Positions 6,949 to 60,951 of a DNA stretch of 64,000 bases are shown in pieces. The first letter of the stretch is position 1, and every line of letters begins with the position of its first letter. This DNA is from Cristatella mucedo (Eukaryota; Bryozoa; Phylactolaemata; Cristatellidae). The notes under the pieces were generated by a model that had not been told where the DNA came from, did not search any database, and was given only the letters and a program-made list of their open reading frames with translations. The translations under genes were made by a program, and so were the position numbers. The stretch is from the NCBI GenBank assembly GCA_009760855.2, contig WPIO01000054.1, forward strand, positions 2,302,001-2,366,000, in the 5' to 3' direction.

Positions 6949-8133
6949 TCAAAGTTTTCTATTCTGGATTGCTGCGACGCGTCTGAGATCTGAGTCCTTG
7001 GCGAGATAATTGACAACCTCTAGACGTTCAAGATTTCCGTCTGAAGTCGCTATTGTGCTGATCTCGCACTGCAAAATTTGGAGACGATGCTGCTCCTGCC
7101 TGTCACTAGTGACTCCAGAGAATATCGAAGAAGCCCTGTGCATACCGGCTGCACCGGAATGTAGCAGATCTCCGAGTGCCTTCCTGAACTTGGCAGACAC
7201 TGCTAGATACACGCCAAAGGTTAGCGAGCTGCCCAGGTACATCAGTAGGCGACACAAGTCCCACGTGACCTTCAGAGCCTCGAATGACCTGCTGTCAAGG
7301 TTTTCCCAGTCGCCAGCCATTATGGGAATCGTTGTGACGACAAATATTCCGTTCAAGATGAGCATCATGACCGTTATGGGCTTGGCTCTCTTCACATTTG
7401 CACTGTCCTTGAGATGTGGATGGCATAGGATGTACAGCGTGAAGCCATTGCACGGAAGCATTATGGCCACTGGTAAGGCCACGTATATTATGCAGTGAGC
7501 GTACCGCCACTTCTGGAACAGGTTATCATCAACGACTCCGCAGACGCCATTCTCGTTCGAGAAGCCATGCGCCACATATGGAATGACGTTGAGGCCGATG
7601 AGGATTGCGACGATAGTAGCTGTCGCTATGACATTGTTAAGCCTGGTGAACCAAAATCTATACTTATGGGGCCTCGTAACGGCGAAAAATCGCTCAACGG
7701 ACACACAAGCTTCCATCCAGGAGTAGAGCTGAAGAGAAAAGTATACGGCTGCATAATACAACCGACATCCGGCATCCGTCGTCTGCTGTTGGAAAATCAG
7801 GTTGTGGCAGGATTGGTGTTTGACAATGGTCGAAAGTAGGCCAGAGTACAAAGCCATCAGCCCAGAGAGGGACATCGTCAGCAGAAATACCGATAACGGC
7901 GATGTGCGCATGGTCCGATTTATGAGGAGTACAAGAATGGAGAGCAAGTGTCCGACGGTGCCCAATAAAAGGATTGGATATCCTATGAAAGTCCACATTG
8001 ATTTACGTATTAAATCGTACTCGTCGTAGCCCTCGCAATAGTCCGGTAACCAAACTATTTGGCCAGAGTTATTCCACTGTGAATCATTCGATCGAACGAT
8101 GACTGTTCCGGTTTGATTCGCTGGGAAATGCAT
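6949..8133 (-). CDS. Class A GPCR, lineage-specific paralog 1
   Basis: A 394-residue seven-transmembrane receptor, expected in the plasma membrane and to signal through heterotrimeric G proteins. The N-terminus has three N-glycosylation sequons (NQT, NDS, NNS, residues 6-23). TM1 is about 46-71, TM2 79-101, TM3 123-146, TM4 166-187, TM5 212-236, TM6 252-273 and TM7 289-312. TM3 Cys123 and ECL2 Cys198 can form the usual disulfide; Cys33 and Cys109, kept in all three paralogs, may form a second. The DRY motif is ERF (147-149). Unusual features: His62 at 1.50, Gly91 at 2.50, Thr268 instead of Trp6.48, and TFGVY (305-309) instead of NPxxY; Pro221 and Pro270 are kept. The start is the first ATG after an acceptor-like site; an upstream in-frame GTG at 8142 is not a likely start. 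It is close to receptor 2 throughout. The ligand is unknown; a peptide or chemosensory ligand is an inference. Confidence 0.93.
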   Translation of the reverse strand: MHFPANQTGTVIVRSNDSQWNNSGQIVWLPDYCEGYDEYDLIRKSMWTFIGYPILLLGTVGHLLSILVLLINRTMRTSPLSVFLLTMSLSGLMALYSGLLSTIVKHQSCHNLIFQQQTTDAGCRLYYAAVYFSLQLYSWMEACVSVERFFAVTRPHKYRFWFTRLNNVIATATIVAILIGLNVIPYVAHGFSNENGVCGVVDDNLFQKWRYAHCIIYVALPVAIMLPCNGFTLYILCHPHLKDSANVKRAKPITVMMLILNGIFVVTTIPIMAGDWENLDSRSFEALKVTWDLCRLLMYLGSSLTFGVYLAVSAKFRKALGDLLHSGAAGMHRASSIFSGVTSDRQEQHRLQILQCEISTIATSDGNLERLEVVNYLAKDSDLRRVAAIQNRKL

Positions 8134-8150
8134 ATTCTTCACGTAGGTAC

Positions 8151-12600: not shown

Positions 12601-12608
12601 TGGACGTG

Positions 12609-12652
12609 CGGCACTGGTTTGACCCAGTGGCTAAGGTGCTCGCCCCGACCAA
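12609..12652 (+). mobile_element. SINE-A head joined to LINE-B
   Basis: The bases gcactggtttgacccagtgg and ctaaggtgctcgccccgacc match the Pol III head of SINE-A. They stop abruptly and continue without a gap into LINE-B coding sequence (aactagctccttagttctgt). Confidence 0.8.
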
Positions 12653-13345
12653 ACTTTTAACTAGCTCCTTAGTTCTGTCTAGGCTACCTTATTGTAATTC
12701 CCATTTGGCTGGGCTACCAAAACAAGCAACTAGGACACTGCAGCTGGCTATGAATATGGCTGCAAGGCTAGTTTTCGAGTCCCAGTGGCTTGACCACGTG
12801 TCTCCTTTGCTAAAAGAGCCCGTAAGGCTGCCGGTTGATCGACGGATACAGAGCAAAGTTCTTATGCAGACCCACAAGGCCCGCCACGGCTTGGCTCCTT
12901 CGTACTTAGCTGAACTGCTGCATCAGTTTCAGCCTGTTCGCGCCCTCAGGTCCTGTGTGGACAATACATTAGCTGTCCCATTCCTCTGCTTAAAGACAGT
13001 TGGCGACAGAAGCTTTAGCTCTGCAGGTCCTAGACTGCGGAACTCGCTTCCACGATTCTTACGCAACGACATCTACTCTCCAACTGCCGACTATGGCACA
13101 TATTTTTCAGCGGTCCTGAGCTGATACTTCCATGCTACTCACCACCTCAACCGCTCTCCTCACTCTGCTATGCTTCTCACTTTCTCTTTTTTTGCGTGAG
13201 ATAAAGTCAATTGGCTACCGAATGCGTACCGAAAGCCGCTCAGGCTGTAAGTGCGCTTTACAAAACTGTCCTGCGTAACACCCACATAGTTTGTATGGCT
13301 TTGTAAAGCTACAGATGTAGATACATTACATTACATTGAAATACA
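12653..13345 (+). mobile_element. LINE-B 3' half (reverse transcriptase C-terminal part)
   Basis: An open frame from the SINE/LINE junction to 13124 encodes the C-terminal domain of a CR1/L2-type LINE polyprotein (CNSHLAGLPKQ, AARLVFESQ, IQSKVLMQTHKARHGLAPSY, VGDRSFSSAGPRLRNSLP). It stops early (TGA at about 13122) relative to the copy at 40010-40732, and the remaining homology is non-coding. The terminal block ends with 'agatacattacattacat', the LINE-B (ATTAC)n signature. It lacks the catalytic RT core and endonuclease, so it is dead on arrival. Confidence 0.85.
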
Positions 13346-13361: not shown

Positions 13362-13431
13362 TTGATGGCCGAGTTCGTGGGCTCGAGCTCCGTTGCTCAT
13401 GTGAAGCGTGTGAATGGAGAATTAGGTTCAC
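13362..13431 (+). mobile_element. SINE-A fragment
   Basis: 'gttcgtgggctcgagctccg' followed by catgtgaagcgtgtgaatgg matches the B-box and the start of the tail of SINE-A. Both ends are lost. Confidence 0.6.
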
Positions 13432-13576
13432 GGAGAGCGGTGTTCAAATCAATTGCCGTTCGTTTTTTTATGAGTACATGTTGCACTCTAAATTTATGGA
13501 CAGAATCCTTCGAAAACGTTTTTACTAAAAAGTAGTATTATTTAATATATAAATCACTTTGTAATATAAGTTTGCT

Positions 13577-13690
13577 TTAATCATCACAGTTAGCAAGAAA
13601 CTCGTCATAAGTATCGCTGCTAACATCTTCATAGTCTTCTGAAGCGTTGTCGATGTCTTAATCGTTACTTTCACTACATGCATTGACTGC
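13577..13690 (-). pseudogene. Acidic coding-like relic
   Basis: The minus strand encodes an acidic C-terminus-like stretch (DIDNASEDYEDVSSDTYDEF then LANCDD and stop), with an in-frame TAA just before it. Such acidic tails occur at the ends of several DNA-transposon transposases, but the family cannot be named from this short piece. Palindrome 1 begins inside it. Confidence 0.3.
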
Positions 13691-13713
13691 ATGTAGTGAA
13701 AGTAACGATTAAG
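13657..13713. repeat. Palindrome 1: 26-bp perfect stem, 5-nt loop
   Basis: Bases 13657-13682 are the exact reverse complement of 13688-13713, with loop ttgac. The stem ends abruptly at both flanks (T opposite T). Confidence 0.97.
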
Positions 13714-13717
13714 TAAT

Positions 13718-13794
13718 CAGTGACTCTACAATTGATGCGCTTTCGCCGAGCTCTAGCCGAGTTCGGCGAAAGCGCATCAATTGTAGAGTCACTG
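13718..13794. repeat. Palindrome 2: 32-bp perfect stem, short loop
   Basis: Bases 13718-13749 pair perfectly with 13763-13794. The 13-base centre can pair a further three bases (ctc/gag). It starts only four bases after palindrome 1 ends and abuts repeat R1 on its right. Confidence 0.97.
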
Positions 13795-14045
13795 CTCTCT
13801 TTTACCGTAGTATGGTTTTAATGCTTGGCATATGACGTCAGAGGCGTTCAAGGTCGCTGTCACTAGGATCCGGATATATGGCAAGGGAAACTTGATTGTC
13901 AGATAAGGATATCTTTGCAACCAATGGCGCCATATCTTTCAGTAGTAAAAATATGCAGAACCCCGAAGAAATATTGTGCATCATTTGCCATAGCACAGCC
14001 CGGATGCTTAATCAAAAAAACTATTAAAACTACTTACGCAAGAGC
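13795..14045 (+). repeat. Dispersed repeat R1, copy 2
   Basis: Aligns to 585-815, including the shared 'gcttggcat.tga', 'ggatccggat', gcaagggaaacttgat, ctttgcaac and atctttc blocks. It has an extra block of about 35 bases (near 13962-13998) that the first copy lacks. Confidence 0.65.
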
Positions 14046-14385: not shown

Positions 14386-15203
14386 CTTGCCACACGTCCT
14401 ACTCCGAAGTGACCTTTCAGTAGACGACCACATCAGCTCCACAGTCAAGTCCGCCCACTTTCATTTATATTACTTTGAAAACATTCGGGCTTGCCTAGAC
14501 TGGAACACCGCATACAAATTGATCGTTGCGTTTGTGACATTACGTCTCGACTTCTGTTACTCACTCCTTGCTGGTATACCATCCTATGCAAGCAGGCGCT
14601 TGCAGTTAGTACACAACTCAGCAGCTAGGCTTGTCTGTCTTGAGCGTCGGAGTTGCCACGTAGCAACACTTCTCGCCGACCTGCACTGGCTACCAGTCAA
14701 GCAGCGGATTGACTTCAAGGTTTTGTCACTCACGTTTAGGTCACTTCCTTATTTGGCTCCAGCCTGCCTATCAGATCTACTCCCCCACGAGGCTAGGCAT
14801 TGTATCACCACCAGCTTTTCTGAATATAATCTTTTACTTACAGCTCGTGCAAACTTCAATTCCTTTGGAGACCGTGCCTTTAGTTTGTTTGCACTCAAAG
14901 CCTGGAACTCACTTCCGACTGGCGTCAGGACATCTTTTGACTTCGCGCTATTAAAAAAGAAGCTTAAACGGTATCTTTTAATCACTGCATTTAGTAGCTG
15001 GTCAATGTGATTCATCCTTTGTGTGTTTATGCATGCTGACACTTTGCATGCTGACTCTGCATGTCACCCCCAACCCACTTTATGCTTGTTGTCATTGAGC
15101 GTGCTACCATAGCAATCCGATTGTGCTTCATTTGAAACAAAATTTAAGTGCTTAGATAGAGATCCATTTCTCTGATGGCGCTATACGAATGCACTATTTT
15201 TTC
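14386..15203 (+). mobile_element. LINE-A 3' third with 207-codon open frame
   Basis: An open frame from 14386 to 15010 encodes the C-terminal domain of an L2-type polyprotein: SDLSVDDHISSTVKSAHF, LDFCYSLLAGIPSYASRRLQ, LHWLPVKQRIDFKVL, LAPACLSDLL, FGDRAFSLFALKAWNSLP, ending in FKLLKKKLK-like basic sequence. The catalytic FADD-type motif is upstream of the truncation. After the stop come the 3'UTR and a decayed tail hairpin (gtgcttagatagagatccat ... ctctgatggcgctata). The frame remains open, which suggests a fairly young insertion. Confidence 0.9.
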
Positions 15204-20446: not shown

Positions 20447-21649
20447 TCAAGTGTTTTCTTCTCTGGATGGCTGTGGCACGCGAGTGGTCATCGGATTTGA
20501 CGCGCCAGTAGTCATTAATGCGATATTGTCTTCGAGCGACTGAATTTCGAGCTTTCCTGCAGACGTCGCAATCGTGCTACTCTCTCGTTGCACTGCTCGG
20601 CTACGAGGTTGATCGCGTCCATCGAACGAACCACCTGACAATACCGACAGAGCCCTGTGAATTCCGGCTGCTCCCGAGTGCAAGAGCTCTCCTAGTGCCT
20701 TTCTATACTTCACAGACACGGCCAGGTAGACTGCAAAGGTGAGCGAGCTGCCCAAATACATCAGCAGGCGAGATATGGTCCACGCTACTTGCAAAGCCTC
20801 GTACGAGGCCTCGTCGAGGTTCTCCCAGTCGCCGACCGCAATAGGTAACGTCGTGACGACAAATATTCCGTTCAGAATGACCATCATAACCGTTACGGGT
20901 GTGGCTTTCCGTACATTTGCACTGTCTTTGAGATGAGGATGGCACAGCGAGTAAAGCGTGAAGCCATTGCACGGCAGCATTACGGCTACTGGCAAGACTA
21001 CGTATATAATGCTGTGGGCATAGCGCCATTTATGGAAAAGACTTTGGTTGACGACTTCGCAGCCACCATTGTCGTCCGCGAAGCCGTGCGCCGTATAGGG
21101 AATGACATTGACGCCGAGTAGAATTCCAACGATAACAGCGGTTGCTATGACGTTGTTTAGCCTGGTGAACCAAAATCTGTACTTGTGGGGCCTGGTAACA
21201 GTGCACAATCGTTCAACGGACACACAAGCTTCCATCCAAGAATAGAGTTGAAGCGAAAAGTAGATTGATGCGTAATACAGCTGACATCCCGCCTCCGTCG
21301 TCTCGCCTTGGAGGAACACGTTGTGGCAGGATTGATGTTTAACAATGGTTGAAAGTAGGCCAGCATACAAAGCAATCAGCCCAGAAAGAGACATCGTTAG
21401 CAAAAATATTGATAAGGGCAACTTGCGCATGCTTCTTTTTACCAGAAGCACGATAACTGAGAGCAAGTGTCCAACGGTACCGAAGATAAGGATCGGGTAT
21501 CCTAAATATACCCACAGCGACGTCAAAAGAAAATCGTGGTCATTGTAGCCGTCGCAATATTCGAGTGGGTGAACTGCAGAAGCGGAATGGCTCAACTGGG
21601 ACTCGTTCGCACGGTTTATCTCTCTGGTTTCATTTACTGGGTAGTCCAT
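20447..21649 (-). CDS. Class A GPCR, lineage-specific paralog 2
   Basis: A 400-residue seven-transmembrane receptor, probably on the cell surface and G-protein coupled. The N-terminus has NET and NES glycosylation sequons (residues 6 and 14) and Cys32. TM1 is about 44-70, TM2 78-100, TM3 122-145, TM4 165-186, TM5 211-235, TM6 251-272 and TM7 288-311. Cys122 (TM3) and Cys197 (ECL2) are the expected disulfide; Cys108 and Cys32 are a conserved extra pair. The cytoplasmic TM3 motif is ERL (146-148), followed by CTVTRPHKYRFWFTR. His61 replaces Asn1.50, Gly90 replaces Asp2.50, TTLP is found at TM6 without Trp, and TFAVY (304-308) replaces NPxxY. The C-terminal tail from about 325 is Ser/Thr/Arg-rich, a plausible phosphorylation region. 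The ATG has a good context (GGAACATGG). It is very similar to receptor 1 from TM1 to helix 8 and diverges at both ends. The ligand is unknown. Confidence 0.94.
   Translation of the reverse strand: MDYPVNETREINRANESQLSHSASAVHPLEYCDGYNDHDFLLTSLWVYLGYPILIFGTVGHLLSVIVLLVKRSMRKLPLSIFLLTMSLSGLIALYAGLLSTIVKHQSCHNVFLQGETTEAGCQLYYASIYFSLQLYSWMEACVSVERLCTVTRPHKYRFWFTRLNNVIATAVIVGILLGVNVIPYTAHGFADDNGGCEVVNQSLFHKWRYAHSIIYVVLPVAVMLPCNGFTLYSLCHPHLKDSANVRKATPVTVMMVILNGIFVVTTLPIAVGDWENLDEASYEALQVAWTISRLLMYLGSSLTFAVYLAVSVKYRKALGELLHSGAAGIHRALSVLSGGSFDGRDQPRSRAVQRESSTIATSAGKLEIQSLEDNIALMTTGASNPMTTRVPQPSREENT

Positions 21650-23440: not shown

Positions 23441-23654
<214 letters not shown>

Positions 23655-34068: not shown

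Positions 34069-34107
<39 letters not shown>
33841..34107. repeat. AT microsatellite/minisatellite
   Basis: TATATA runs plus a repeated 'tatagcataataaatatagc' module of about 30-40 bp, and CGATCGATCGAT at 33863. Confidence 0.9.
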
Positions 34108-34111
<4 letters not shown>

Positions 34112-34742: not shown

Positions 34743-34878
34743 TTAATTTATATGGCGCCCTAAGAGAACCTAATCTCAATTCAGGCTCATCGCATGTGCC
34801 TCGGGGCTTGAGCCTACGACCTCGGCCAGACCTTGGTCGGGGCATGCGCCTTGACCACTAGGGCAAACCAGCTCGGCG
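34743..34878 (-). mobile_element. SINE-A copy
   Basis: Minus strand: cgagctggtttgccctagtg, gtcaaggcgcatgccccgac, gaggtcgtaggctcaagccc, 'cctgaattgagattaggttc' and tcttagggcgccatataaat. Confidence 0.9.
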
Positions 34879-39781: not shown

Positions 39782-39914
39782 GATTCATTTGTATAGCACC
39801 CCAAGAGAACTTAATCTCTATTCAGGCGCTTCACATGAGCCTCAGGGCTCGAGCCCACGACCTCAGCGAGACCTTGGTCTGGGCGAGCAACTTAAATGCT
39901 GGACCAATCCAGTT
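39782..39914 (-). mobile_element. SINE-A copy
   Basis: Minus strand: head 'agcatttaagttgctcgccc', gaggtcgtgggctcgagccc, 'cctgaatagagattaagttc' and tcttggggtgctatacaaat. Confidence 0.9.
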
Positions 39915-44011: not shown

Positions 44012-44148
44012 GTTCTTTTGTACAGCGCCCCAAGAGAACTTAATCTCTATTCAGGCGCTTTCTCATATGCCTCGGGGCTCGAGCCCAAGACCTCATCCAG
44101 ACCTTGATCTGGGCGAGCATCTTAACCGCTGGACGAAACCAGCTCGGC
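44012..44148 (-). mobile_element. SINE-A copy
   Basis: Minus strand: cgagctggtttcgtccagcg, gttaagatgctcgcccagat, gaggtcttgggctcgagccc, 'cctgaatagagattaagttc' and tcttggggcgctgtacaaaa. Its 3' end abuts the TA run. Confidence 0.92.
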
Positions 44149-48193: not shown

Positions 48194-48690
48194 ATGCAGA
48201 GCGAGCAGCTGTGGATTTCTAAAAGGTACTTAGCTCACCTTGAATCTGGCGACTGTTGGCAGTCCAGTTGTTCCAATATTCCATAGCGACATCATAATGT
48301 AACCTTCGATCGAAGTCGCATGCCTTATGTCTTGATCGATATGCATTCGAAAGCAGCTGCCCTGCAACTATGCCATACTGGAATAAAAACTGCCACCCCT
48401 AATTAACTGGGTCGCACCAGTCGTCCTACGTATGGATGACGGAGGTGGATGACGGTTGGCCAAGAGCTGACCAACCGGCCAAGCCGTTAGCAGGCTTACG
48501 GAAATCAAGTAGTGACGTTAAGGCTCACCTGCTTTAGATGCGTAAAGAATAAACATCGTCTTCACAGATAGGCCATTTTTCTTTTTTTCAAAGGCTCACG
48601 TTTCTGCTGCACGCTCCTGCTTGACTGAAGTGATCGCACGATCGATTCGTCGCGGGCCCGACTTTACTCTGTTGGATGCACCCTCTATAA
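48194..48690. other. Receptor 3 upstream region
   Basis: No other gene. The frame is open upstream of the receptor ATG back to about 48621 but begins there without an ATG, so this is treated as intron/5'UTR. Confidence 0.4.
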
Positions 48691-48700
48691 TATTTTCCAG
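48686..48700 (+). promoter_or_regulatory. Putative 3' splice acceptor before receptor 3 ATG
   Basis: TATAATATTTTCCAG is followed 13 bases later by the ATG at 48714, equivalent to the sites before receptors 1 and 2. Confidence 0.6.
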
Positions 48701-48713
48701 TGACAAGGATCGA

Positions 48714-49841
48714 ATGGATCACGACGGCAACGACTTGGACGCACATTCAAACGTGGACGCGGTAGAGCCGCACAGCTATGAATTGGAAAGCGAAGCCTAC
48801 GAGGATCTTTGCGACAACTTCGGGAGTACGGAGTATGTTATTAGGTCCATGTGGATGTACGCAGGGTATCCGATACTAGCAGTTGGCACGGTCGGGCACG
48901 TACTGTCGGTGCTACTGCTTCTCGTCACCAAGTCGATTCGACAAATGCCAGTGTCCGTGTTCCTGCTCACCATGTCTCTGGCGGGACTCGTGTCGCTTTA
49001 CATCGGACTGCTGTCCAACATTGTCATGTATCAGTCGTGCCTCGTCACGCTGTTCCGGGACATGACGAGCGAGTTCGGCTGCCGGCTCCACGTTGCAGCA
49101 CTCTACGTGTCATTTCACCTTTACTCGTGGATGGAGGCTTGCATCGCCGTCGAAAGGATGGCGGCCGTCAGGTGGCCGCATCGCTACAGGTCCTGGTTTA
49201 CTAGGCGCAACAACTCGATCGCCGTCGGCGCCATCTTCGTGGCTCTGTGCGCCGTCAACTACGTCCCCTTCAGAGCGTTCGGATACCTGTACGGGTTCTC
49301 GTGCCAGGTCGTCGACGAGACCGCGTTCGGCTGGTGGCTCTACGTTCACTGCGTCGTCTACGTGGTACTGCCGGCCGCCATGGTACTCGCATCGAACGGC
49401 CTGACGCTGCACACGATGTGCAGCTCCAAGCTGAGCAGCAGTGTGTGCGTTCGCAAGGCCAAGCCCATCACGGCCATGATGATCGCGCTGAACGCGACAT
49501 TCGTCGTCACCGCCGGTCCTCTTCTCGTCGTCGAGCTGGACAGAATCGAAGGCAGCGCCGCCGCCAGCAGTATCATGGACATAGCTTGGTCCGGCTCTCG
49601 CTTGCTGGCGTACTTGGGAAACTCTCTGACGTTCGTTGTGTACTTAGCCATGGCTGCGAGGTTCAGGCGGGCCATGGGCCAGCTGGTGACGGGGACGAAG
49701 CGAAAGCAGCGTGATCTCCCGAGGAGGGCCGCCGCGCTGGGTGAACGGCAGCAGCAAAGTGCTCAATTTCATCGCCGAACGAGCTACTCGGAGACGAGCA
49801 GCACGACCTTGACCTACGACACGTCGGTCGGAGCAGTGTGA
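48714..49841 (+). CDS. Class A GPCR, lineage-specific paralog 3 (divergent)
   Basis: A 375-residue seven-transmembrane receptor. The acidic N-terminus (1-42) has Cys33 but, unlike the other two, no N-glycosylation sequon. TM1 is about 44-71, TM2 79-101, TM3 123-146, TM4 166-187, TM5 210-235, TM6 251-273 and TM7 288-313. Cys123 and Cys197 are the expected disulfide; Cys109 is kept. The TM3 end is ERM (147-149) followed by AAVRWPHRYRSWFTR. His62 at 1.50, Gly91 at 2.50, no Trp at 6.48 (TAGP) and TFVVY (306-310) instead of NPxxY are shared with receptors 1 and 2. The tail has basic clusters (KRKQRDLPRR) and ends SETSSTTLTYDTSVGAV, rich in Ser/Thr. Codon third positions are much more GC-rich than in receptors 1 and 2. 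It lies on the opposite strand and is more diverged. The start was chosen as the ATG just after the acceptor; an earlier in-frame TTG at 48621 is rejected. The ligand is unknown. Confidence 0.93.
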   Translation: MDHDGNDLDAHSNVDAVEPHSYELESEAYEDLCDNFGSTEYVIRSMWMYAGYPILAVGTVGHVLSVLLLLVTKSIRQMPVSVFLLTMSLAGLVSLYIGLLSNIVMYQSCLVTLFRDMTSEFGCRLHVAALYVSFHLYSWMEACIAVERMAAVRWPHRYRSWFTRRNNSIAVGAIFVALCAVNYVPFRAFGYLYGFSCQVVDETAFGWWLYVHCVVYVVLPAAMVLASNGLTLHTMCSSKLSSSVCVRKAKPITAMMIALNATFVVTAGPLLVVELDRIEGSAAASSIMDIAWSGSRLLAYLGNSLTFVVYLAMAARFRRAMGQLVTGTKRKQRDLPRRAAALGERQQQSAQFHRRTSYSETSSTTLTYDTSVGAV

Positions 49842-60821: not shown

Positions 60822-60951
60822 GCCGAGCTGGTTTGGTCTAGCGGTTAAGGTGCTCGCCCCCCGACCAAGGTCGTGGGCTCGAGCCCTGAGGCATATGTGA
60901 AGCGCCTGAATAGAGACTAAGTTCTCTTGGGACGCTATACAAATGAATTAT
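60822..60951 (+). mobile_element. SINE-A, reference full-length copy
   Basis: gccgagctggtttggtctag then cggttaaggtgctcgccccc (Pol III A-box region), tcgtgggctcgagccctgag (B-box-like), 'catatgtgaagcgcctgaat', agagactaagttctcttggg and acgctatacaaatgaattat. The tail after 'gaagcgcc' matches the LINE-A 3' end: same stem, same inner AGAGA...TCTCT pairing and the same '.tata/tttatcaa.tg.atta' end. Confidence 0.95.

Follow-up and report, generated by a model that had tools for sequence, protein, structure and literature searches.

A pair of back-to-back hairpins in the genome of the bryozoan Cristatella mucedo is probably the scar of a break repaired by fold-back at both ends

Two long hairpins stand back to back in the genome of the bryozoan Cristatella mucedo, and we consider it probable that they are a repair scar left by one break at which both 3′ ends folded back, primed their own extension and were joined through the four bases TAAT. 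With somewhat less assurance, we lean towards a narrower reading in which this is a germline "double snap-back" end-joining scar, both ends having passed through hairpins with 5-nt loops so that a single mutation produced the two hairpins. The structure lies in a 64,000-nt stretch of DNA (C497:2302001-2366000; hereafter the window, meaning the whole stretch that was analysed) from an assembly of 572 Mb in 688 contigs. Read from left to right, the junction consists of sequence A, its inverted copy, TAAT, an inverted copy of B and B itself, A and B being the two sequences that flank it. Each side has an outside standard for comparison, on the left a repeat with many copies and on the right a near-identical local copy; with these, old DNA can be told from new and a natural repair junction read base by base.

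An inverted-repeat scan of the whole window gave hairpin 1 perfect arms of 26 bp (13657-13682 and 13688-13713) around the 5-nt loop TTGAC (13683-13687) and hairpin 2 perfect arms of 32 bp (13718-13749 and 13763-13794) around a 13-nt centre, the two being separated by the 4-bp spacer TAAT (13714-13717), exactly as an earlier note on this DNA had placed two perfect palindromes. Within the centre of hairpin 2, positions 13750-13753 lie opposite 13759-13762 and add three pairs and one mismatch; the stem in full is 36 bp, with G13750 x T13762 as its sole mismatch and TAGCC as its loop, which makes the loops of both hairpins equal at 5 nt. The scan covered perfect inverted repeats with spacers of up to 60, and with that limit hairpins 1 and 2 are the only inverted repeats of at least 17 bp in the window outside TA runs; long TA-repeat runs at 23443-23551 and 34072-34108 are the only others of that length. 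The same note had held chance to be essentially excluded, and the numbers bear this out: when the window was resampled 60 times from an order-3 Markov model, the longest perfect arm (spacer ≤60) reached 14, and the single-strand DNA fold of the double hairpin (-74.4 kcal/mol; z = -18.6) was equalled in stability by 0 of 200 shuffles. With low-complexity arms filtered out, no other perfect inverted repeat is as long as hairpins 1 and 2 in a 264-kb sample of the same genome, made up of the window and 20 ten-kb pieces (7 on C497 near the window and 13 on contig C222 at 1-Mb steps; 5 kb are N). Those that come closest, at L009:7181-7267 (21 bp, with 45 nt between the arms) and at L012:5667-5716 (17 bp, with 16 nt between them), are perhaps scars of single template switches. 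Extrusion of the hairpins as cruciforms is physically plausible, and the stems could possibly give rise to hairpin RNA. A structured RNA of known family was considered and rejected, the window containing no Rfam match at gathering score.

The surrounding window carries three uninterrupted reading frames that match the receptor family 7tm_1 in Pfam, at 6949-8142 (-), 20447-21649 (-) and 48621-49841 (+); these rhodopsin-type frames perhaps form a local receptor cluster. The Pfam scan covered 10 of the 28 window frames of at least 120 aa and returned no match for seven of the ten, among them two LINE-like frames (12606-13124 and 14387-15010). Many copies of a LINE-like 3′ end are present, which we take to be of LINE origin from their shared 3′ ends and their resemblance to LINEs. 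ARAGORN called no tRNA in the window. A short dispersed repeat recurs at 13366-13454, 2174-2261, 34766-34828, 39807-39867, 44017-44094 and 60865-60916; its motifs resemble box A and box B, and we presume that it is a tRNA-derived SINE.

To the left of the junction lies a truncated copy of element A on the minus strand, at 13456-13689 (the BLAST match begins at 13461, and 13456 was placed by eye). Element A is a dispersed repeat of ~313 bp whose terminal inverted repeats, of about 26 bp, begin CCGTATTT. TA adjoins three of the four left ends and three of the four right ends inspected; given this and the motifs at its ends, we assume that A is a non-autonomous relative of the Tc1/mariner-pogo elements. 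An acidic minus-strand reading frame sits within the element. What had been noted as an acidic coding relic is thus a real reading frame, yet one that belongs to a dispersed repeat, and for this reason we do not favour the view that it is a host gene.

Of the 43 matches that a genome search with 13600-13820 as query returned, one was the locus, two were the palindromes matching themselves, two belonged to a single place at a distance of 44 kb, where the match covers only the part from 13749 on, and the remaining 38 were dispersed places. All 38 dispersed places match the left part of the query only, starting at query position 1-5 and ending at 71-100, and 36 of them stop at or before query position 90, the other two ending at 93 and 100. 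Query position 90 is 13689, two bases past the loop of hairpin 1. When the full element was used as query, 39/39 other near-full copies continued through the point at which the window copy turns back (40 scored of 359 candidates, one of these being the query; 11 short rows representing pieces of the terminal repeat were excluded), and the same was true of all 15 copies that were aligned, five of them loci from the first search and ten from the best rows of the full-element search. The window copy lacks about 80 bp (as measured in the L003 copy, whose match to the window is confined to 13461-13689), including the second terminal repeat. Because other copies of A continue past the turn-back point with sequence that the window copy does not have, the left arm and loop of hairpin 1, both on the plus strand and collinear with A, are by this comparison old DNA and the right arm is an insertion. 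The final two bases collinear with A are the TG at 13688-13689, and the remainder of the right arm, 24 nt at 13690-13713, is a new inverted copy of 13657-13680.

The bases of the left arm also indicate where the copy came from. Positions 13676 and 13677 have bases present in 0/15 other A copies, and those at 13659 and 13666 are rare (1/15 and 2/15); all four are mirrored in the inverted arm. Since these private or rare bases recur there, the inverted arm was most likely copied from the window's own copy of A after that copy had gained its mutations, a statement that covers 15 copies and leaves room for a close relative with the same bases. Other copies of A are some 10-22% diverged from the one in the window. 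In the L003 and L006 copies, a natural 5-bp inverted repeat, CAGTG-ACTGA-CACTG, occupies the position matching 13689, and the break point of the window copy falls inside its 5-nt loop; a hairpin-prone spot in A may have favoured the break.

The right side of the junction is sequence B (13749-14034, plus strand), which was found at three places in the genome, all on C497 within 45 kb (three candidates were scored of three, and such counts do not prove rarity). Besides the window, these are C497:2271292-2271529, on the opposite strand at 98% identity, and a diverged copy at 616-764 of the window (plus strand, 79%), which is in no long inverted repeat found in the window. The nearer relative, the L002/L011 copy 44 kb away, aligns with window positions 14034 to 13749 over 289 columns, of which 5 hold gaps and 2 a substitution. 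It contains the right arm of hairpin 2 once and forms no palindrome, and at 13749 it leaves the window sequence, with other sequence to the left. Because this unfolded copy holds a single arm and departs at 13749, the right arm of hairpin 2 (13763-13794, collinear with B) and its centre are, on the strength of that relative, the old part, and the left arm is the insertion, with about 31 new nt at 13718-13748 that form an inverted copy of 13764-13794. The centre (13749-13762, plus strand; AGCTC, the loop TAGCC, then GAGT) is present in the unfolded copy except for a 3-nt GCG difference, and both mismatch bases, G13750 and T13762, occur there as well. An element of the earlier description requires amendment here: the hairpins had been placed between the acidic relic and a dispersed repeat, and B in fact separates them from the LINE-like repeat whose start is at 14041.

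Relative to the L011 copy, B in the window is cut at 13749, and judging from this single relative the start of B was probably lost at the junction. The copy at 616-764 does not really back the view that the left end of L011 is ancestral: the shuffle p was 0.044, but with a best alignment that was out of register, and it was 0.09 when the flank was taken by itself. For the window sequence on the right-hand side of B, comparison with this copy gave a shuffle p of 0.0065 (the best of three such tests), a hint that this flank is old. This bears on the notion that B is filler, copied into the window break from 44 kb away, which we do not favour: the right flank appears to be shared with the old copy, and it is the L011 copy that sits inserted in a LINE-like tail. 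That stretch (L011:1292-1578; C497:2271292-2271578) is 286 bp long, inverted, and carries 2 substitutions relative to the window, and LINE-like tails without the insertion are common. It has the look of a separate templated insertion, recent and short-range. Its location had raised the suspicion that B is a dispersed transposon, an idea that we dropped when the genome search, whose counts do not prove rarity, gave three places only, all on C497.

According to the reading that we prefer, the chromosome would have broken between the copy of A and B, or with loss of intervening sequence. On the left, the top strand would have ended in ...CATTGACTG-3′, its terminal TG (13688-13689) folding back over a 5-nt loop to pair with CA at 13681-13682, and a polymerase would then have copied 24 nt of the same strand. 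On the right, the bottom strand would likewise have folded back over a 5-nt loop, with GAGCT priming on AACTC through four of five pairs; the primer mismatch of hairpin 2 would persist today, and extension would have run for about 31 nt. The extended ends would then have been joined via TAAT, the proposed filler at their meeting point (13714-13717), and the second strands filled in. The net outcome would be two perfect hairpins back to back, with the end of A and probably the start of B lost and nothing added besides TAAT. Several observations speak for such a course. Both new arms run in the direction expected of 3′-end extension, of the top strand on the left and of the bottom strand on the right. 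The two loops are alike in measuring 5 nt. Each inner arm repeats, in inverted form, the sequence beside the proposed break, the evidence for copying in cis coming from hairpin 1, and sequence is missing at the junction, ~80 bp of A and, relative to the single copy L011, the start of B. We favour one event because only 4 bp separate the two longest non-simple perfect inverted repeats of the 264 kb; one break explains both the proximity of two rare structures and the truncation of their flanks.

We infer that both fold-backs came from one break and that the primers were those named, and the polymerase was presumably Pol theta or Pol delta. No hairpin-free allele, haplotype or related species was found, and the search with 13600-13820 gave no other place above 90% identity to the left part, so the singleness of the event is a matter of reasoning from the present arrangement. 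The proposed primer of hairpin 1 has just 2 nt (TG/CA). For hairpin 2, the L011 copy contains a 7-bp inverted repeat, CGCCGAA/TTCGGCG, with 25 nt between its halves; this 7-mer occurs in 0.2% of random 26-nt stretches of L011, and some arm-complementary 7-mer in 2.5%. It is thus possible that hairpin 2 was primed with a larger loop from which bases were lost later, and the G13750 x T13762 mismatch is not necessarily a fossil of the primer. As for TAAT, the GATTA in hairpin 1 was considered as a template, and we reason that a 4-5-nt match within ~100 nt is to be expected by chance.

The double hairpin is probably of recent origin, one of the options that the earlier note had drawn from its perfect arms. 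The 61 pairs besides G13750 x T13762 are intact, which bounds the divergence of the arms at less than about 5% (rule of three, 95% bound), and the few differences that separate B from its nearest copy agree with this. If B in L011 was copied from the unfolded locus, the event would be younger than 2 substitutions per 286 bp, a limit that becomes void with a hairpin-free allele as donor.

An unlikely alternative is that one polymerase switched templates serially, in the manner of MMBIR or FoSTeS. The nascent strand would have followed A as far as 13689, turned back on itself for 24 nt, switched to the opposite strand of B at 13794 and copied it toward 13749, then folded back a second time and continued along B. 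Such a path yields the identical sequence and accounts in one course for the lost end of A and start of B, and complex insertions of two inverted pieces are described for yeast RPA and rad27 mutants (PMC11724301). It requires three switches, however, as against two self-primings and one joining, and inspection by eye shows hardly any microhomology, beyond the hairpin itself, where inverted B changes to forward B; the jump from A to B at TAAT has no clear homology.

We consider it still less likely that two independent short-range template-switch mutations (TSMs) took place in A and in B, whether as neighbours by chance or with the second triggered by the instability of the first hairpin. Single TSMs are reported as common in great apes, with a median inverted copy of 12 nt and a maximum of 128, and perfect hairpins result from them (PMC7954356, PMC8794818); the 264 kb also contain the further 21-bp and 17-bp inverted repeats. 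An ordinary TSM resumes beside its switch point, though, and A does not resume here; that the two longest arms of 264 kb should fall within 4 bp of each other by separate events is improbable.

Fold-back chimeras occur in sequencing libraries, and an assembly, cloning or library artefact of fold-back chimeric molecules would be in keeping with the absence of a second haplotype of the locus from the genome search. We nevertheless rate this origin as very unlikely. The locus is inside a contig of 3.0 Mb, in an assembly whose contigs reach at least 24.8 Mb, and the usual read-scale chimera does not look like this structure, with its stems of 26 and 36 bp, loops of 5 nt, joint of 4 bp and lost repeat end. 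That the structure is a mobile element of the hairpin or foldback type, or a pair of hairpins organised to act in cis, has a next to negligible probability: two long perfect tandem hairpins give it the superficial anatomy of one, and foldback-element ends had been among the suggestions of the earlier note, but a search of the genome for the double hairpin yielded one full-length match in 572 Mb (repeat counts being lower bounds) in place of the several copies that such a transposon should have, the sequences on either side, to which the arms belong, have no match in common, the junction cuts A short, and a target-site duplication at 13656/13795 was not seen by eye. Hairpin ends made by a transposase, as P nucleotides of the RAG/hAT type, were rejected, because those give loopless palindromes of a few nucleotides. 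The locus is best explained as a repair scar, not as a functional or mobile element, and is not known to affect the organism.

If this interpretation is correct, several things follow for how palindromes arise. The junction suggests that fold-back priming at both ends of a break is possible, and that a perfect pair of hairpins can arise without a transposon and without a second accident. Two-ended short-loop fold-back repair would then occur and be transmitted in this lineage, through hairpins of a kind suppressed in yeast by MRE11 and SAE2, and tandem hairpins would arise at one stroke, as raw material for hairpin-RNA clusters or fragile palindromes. The scar also provides a signature that can be counted genome-wide, namely inner arms that copy the outer arms, truncated flanks and short loops, and the frequency with which short-loop fold-backs escape hairpin nucleases therefore becomes testable.

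The individual steps have likenesses in systems already described. In yeast, inverted duplications at breaks are mostly ~5-34 bp; one end folds back, and NHEJ or Alt-EJ captures its partner (Yu et al. 2024, PMC11724301). The present case resembles these in having a short inverted duplication beside a break, which may have been primed by fold-back of a 3′ end on microhomology, with 24 and ~31 new nt here. Unlike the yeast assay, in which one end is used with a 41-nt loop (PMC11724301), both ends would have been copied, over 5-nt loops, and inverted copies are found on both sides of the joint where the one-ended course would have left one side joined without fold-back. Snap-back synthesis is credited with inverted-repeat insertions in a review of Pol theta (PMC9962433), and the likeness to Pol theta snap-back and SD-MMEJ is that intramolecular hairpin priming can give such insertions at end-joining junctions; the differences are that both ends would have been used here and that the arms are long and perfect. 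Foldback inversions with short loops are reported mainly from yeast with defective MRE11 or SAE2, with median loops of 4 and 3 nt (PMC7467729; compare PMC10622511). There too resected ends fold back via short-loop hairpins, but the products are hairpin-capped chromosomes and large inverted duplications, whereas here the copied strand would have been released after 24-31 nt and joined.

In apes and at microRNA loci, perfect hairpins result from template switching (PMC7954356, PMC8794818), and our case is similar in that a perfect hairpin would come from one mutation and be a possible source of new RNA hairpins. A TSM resumes beside its switch point, the resumption of ancestral sequence being part of the four-point description; here a different neighbour sequence follows, and 15/15 A copies continue with sequence absent from the window. 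In small inverted triplications (PMC13334657), an inverted piece is likewise copied by fold-back or by a misannealed 3′ flap. Those have the order DUP/IN/DUP; at the present junction A is followed by its inverted copy, then by inverted B and B, and there is no direct duplication. No description of a break with fold-back at both of its ends was found in the literature searched, as judged mostly on titles and the openings of abstracts. Because the yeast fold-back is one-ended, the TSM resumes and the triplications differ in order, the case is best explained as fold-back repair, an event of a type already described, which here would have been two-ended.
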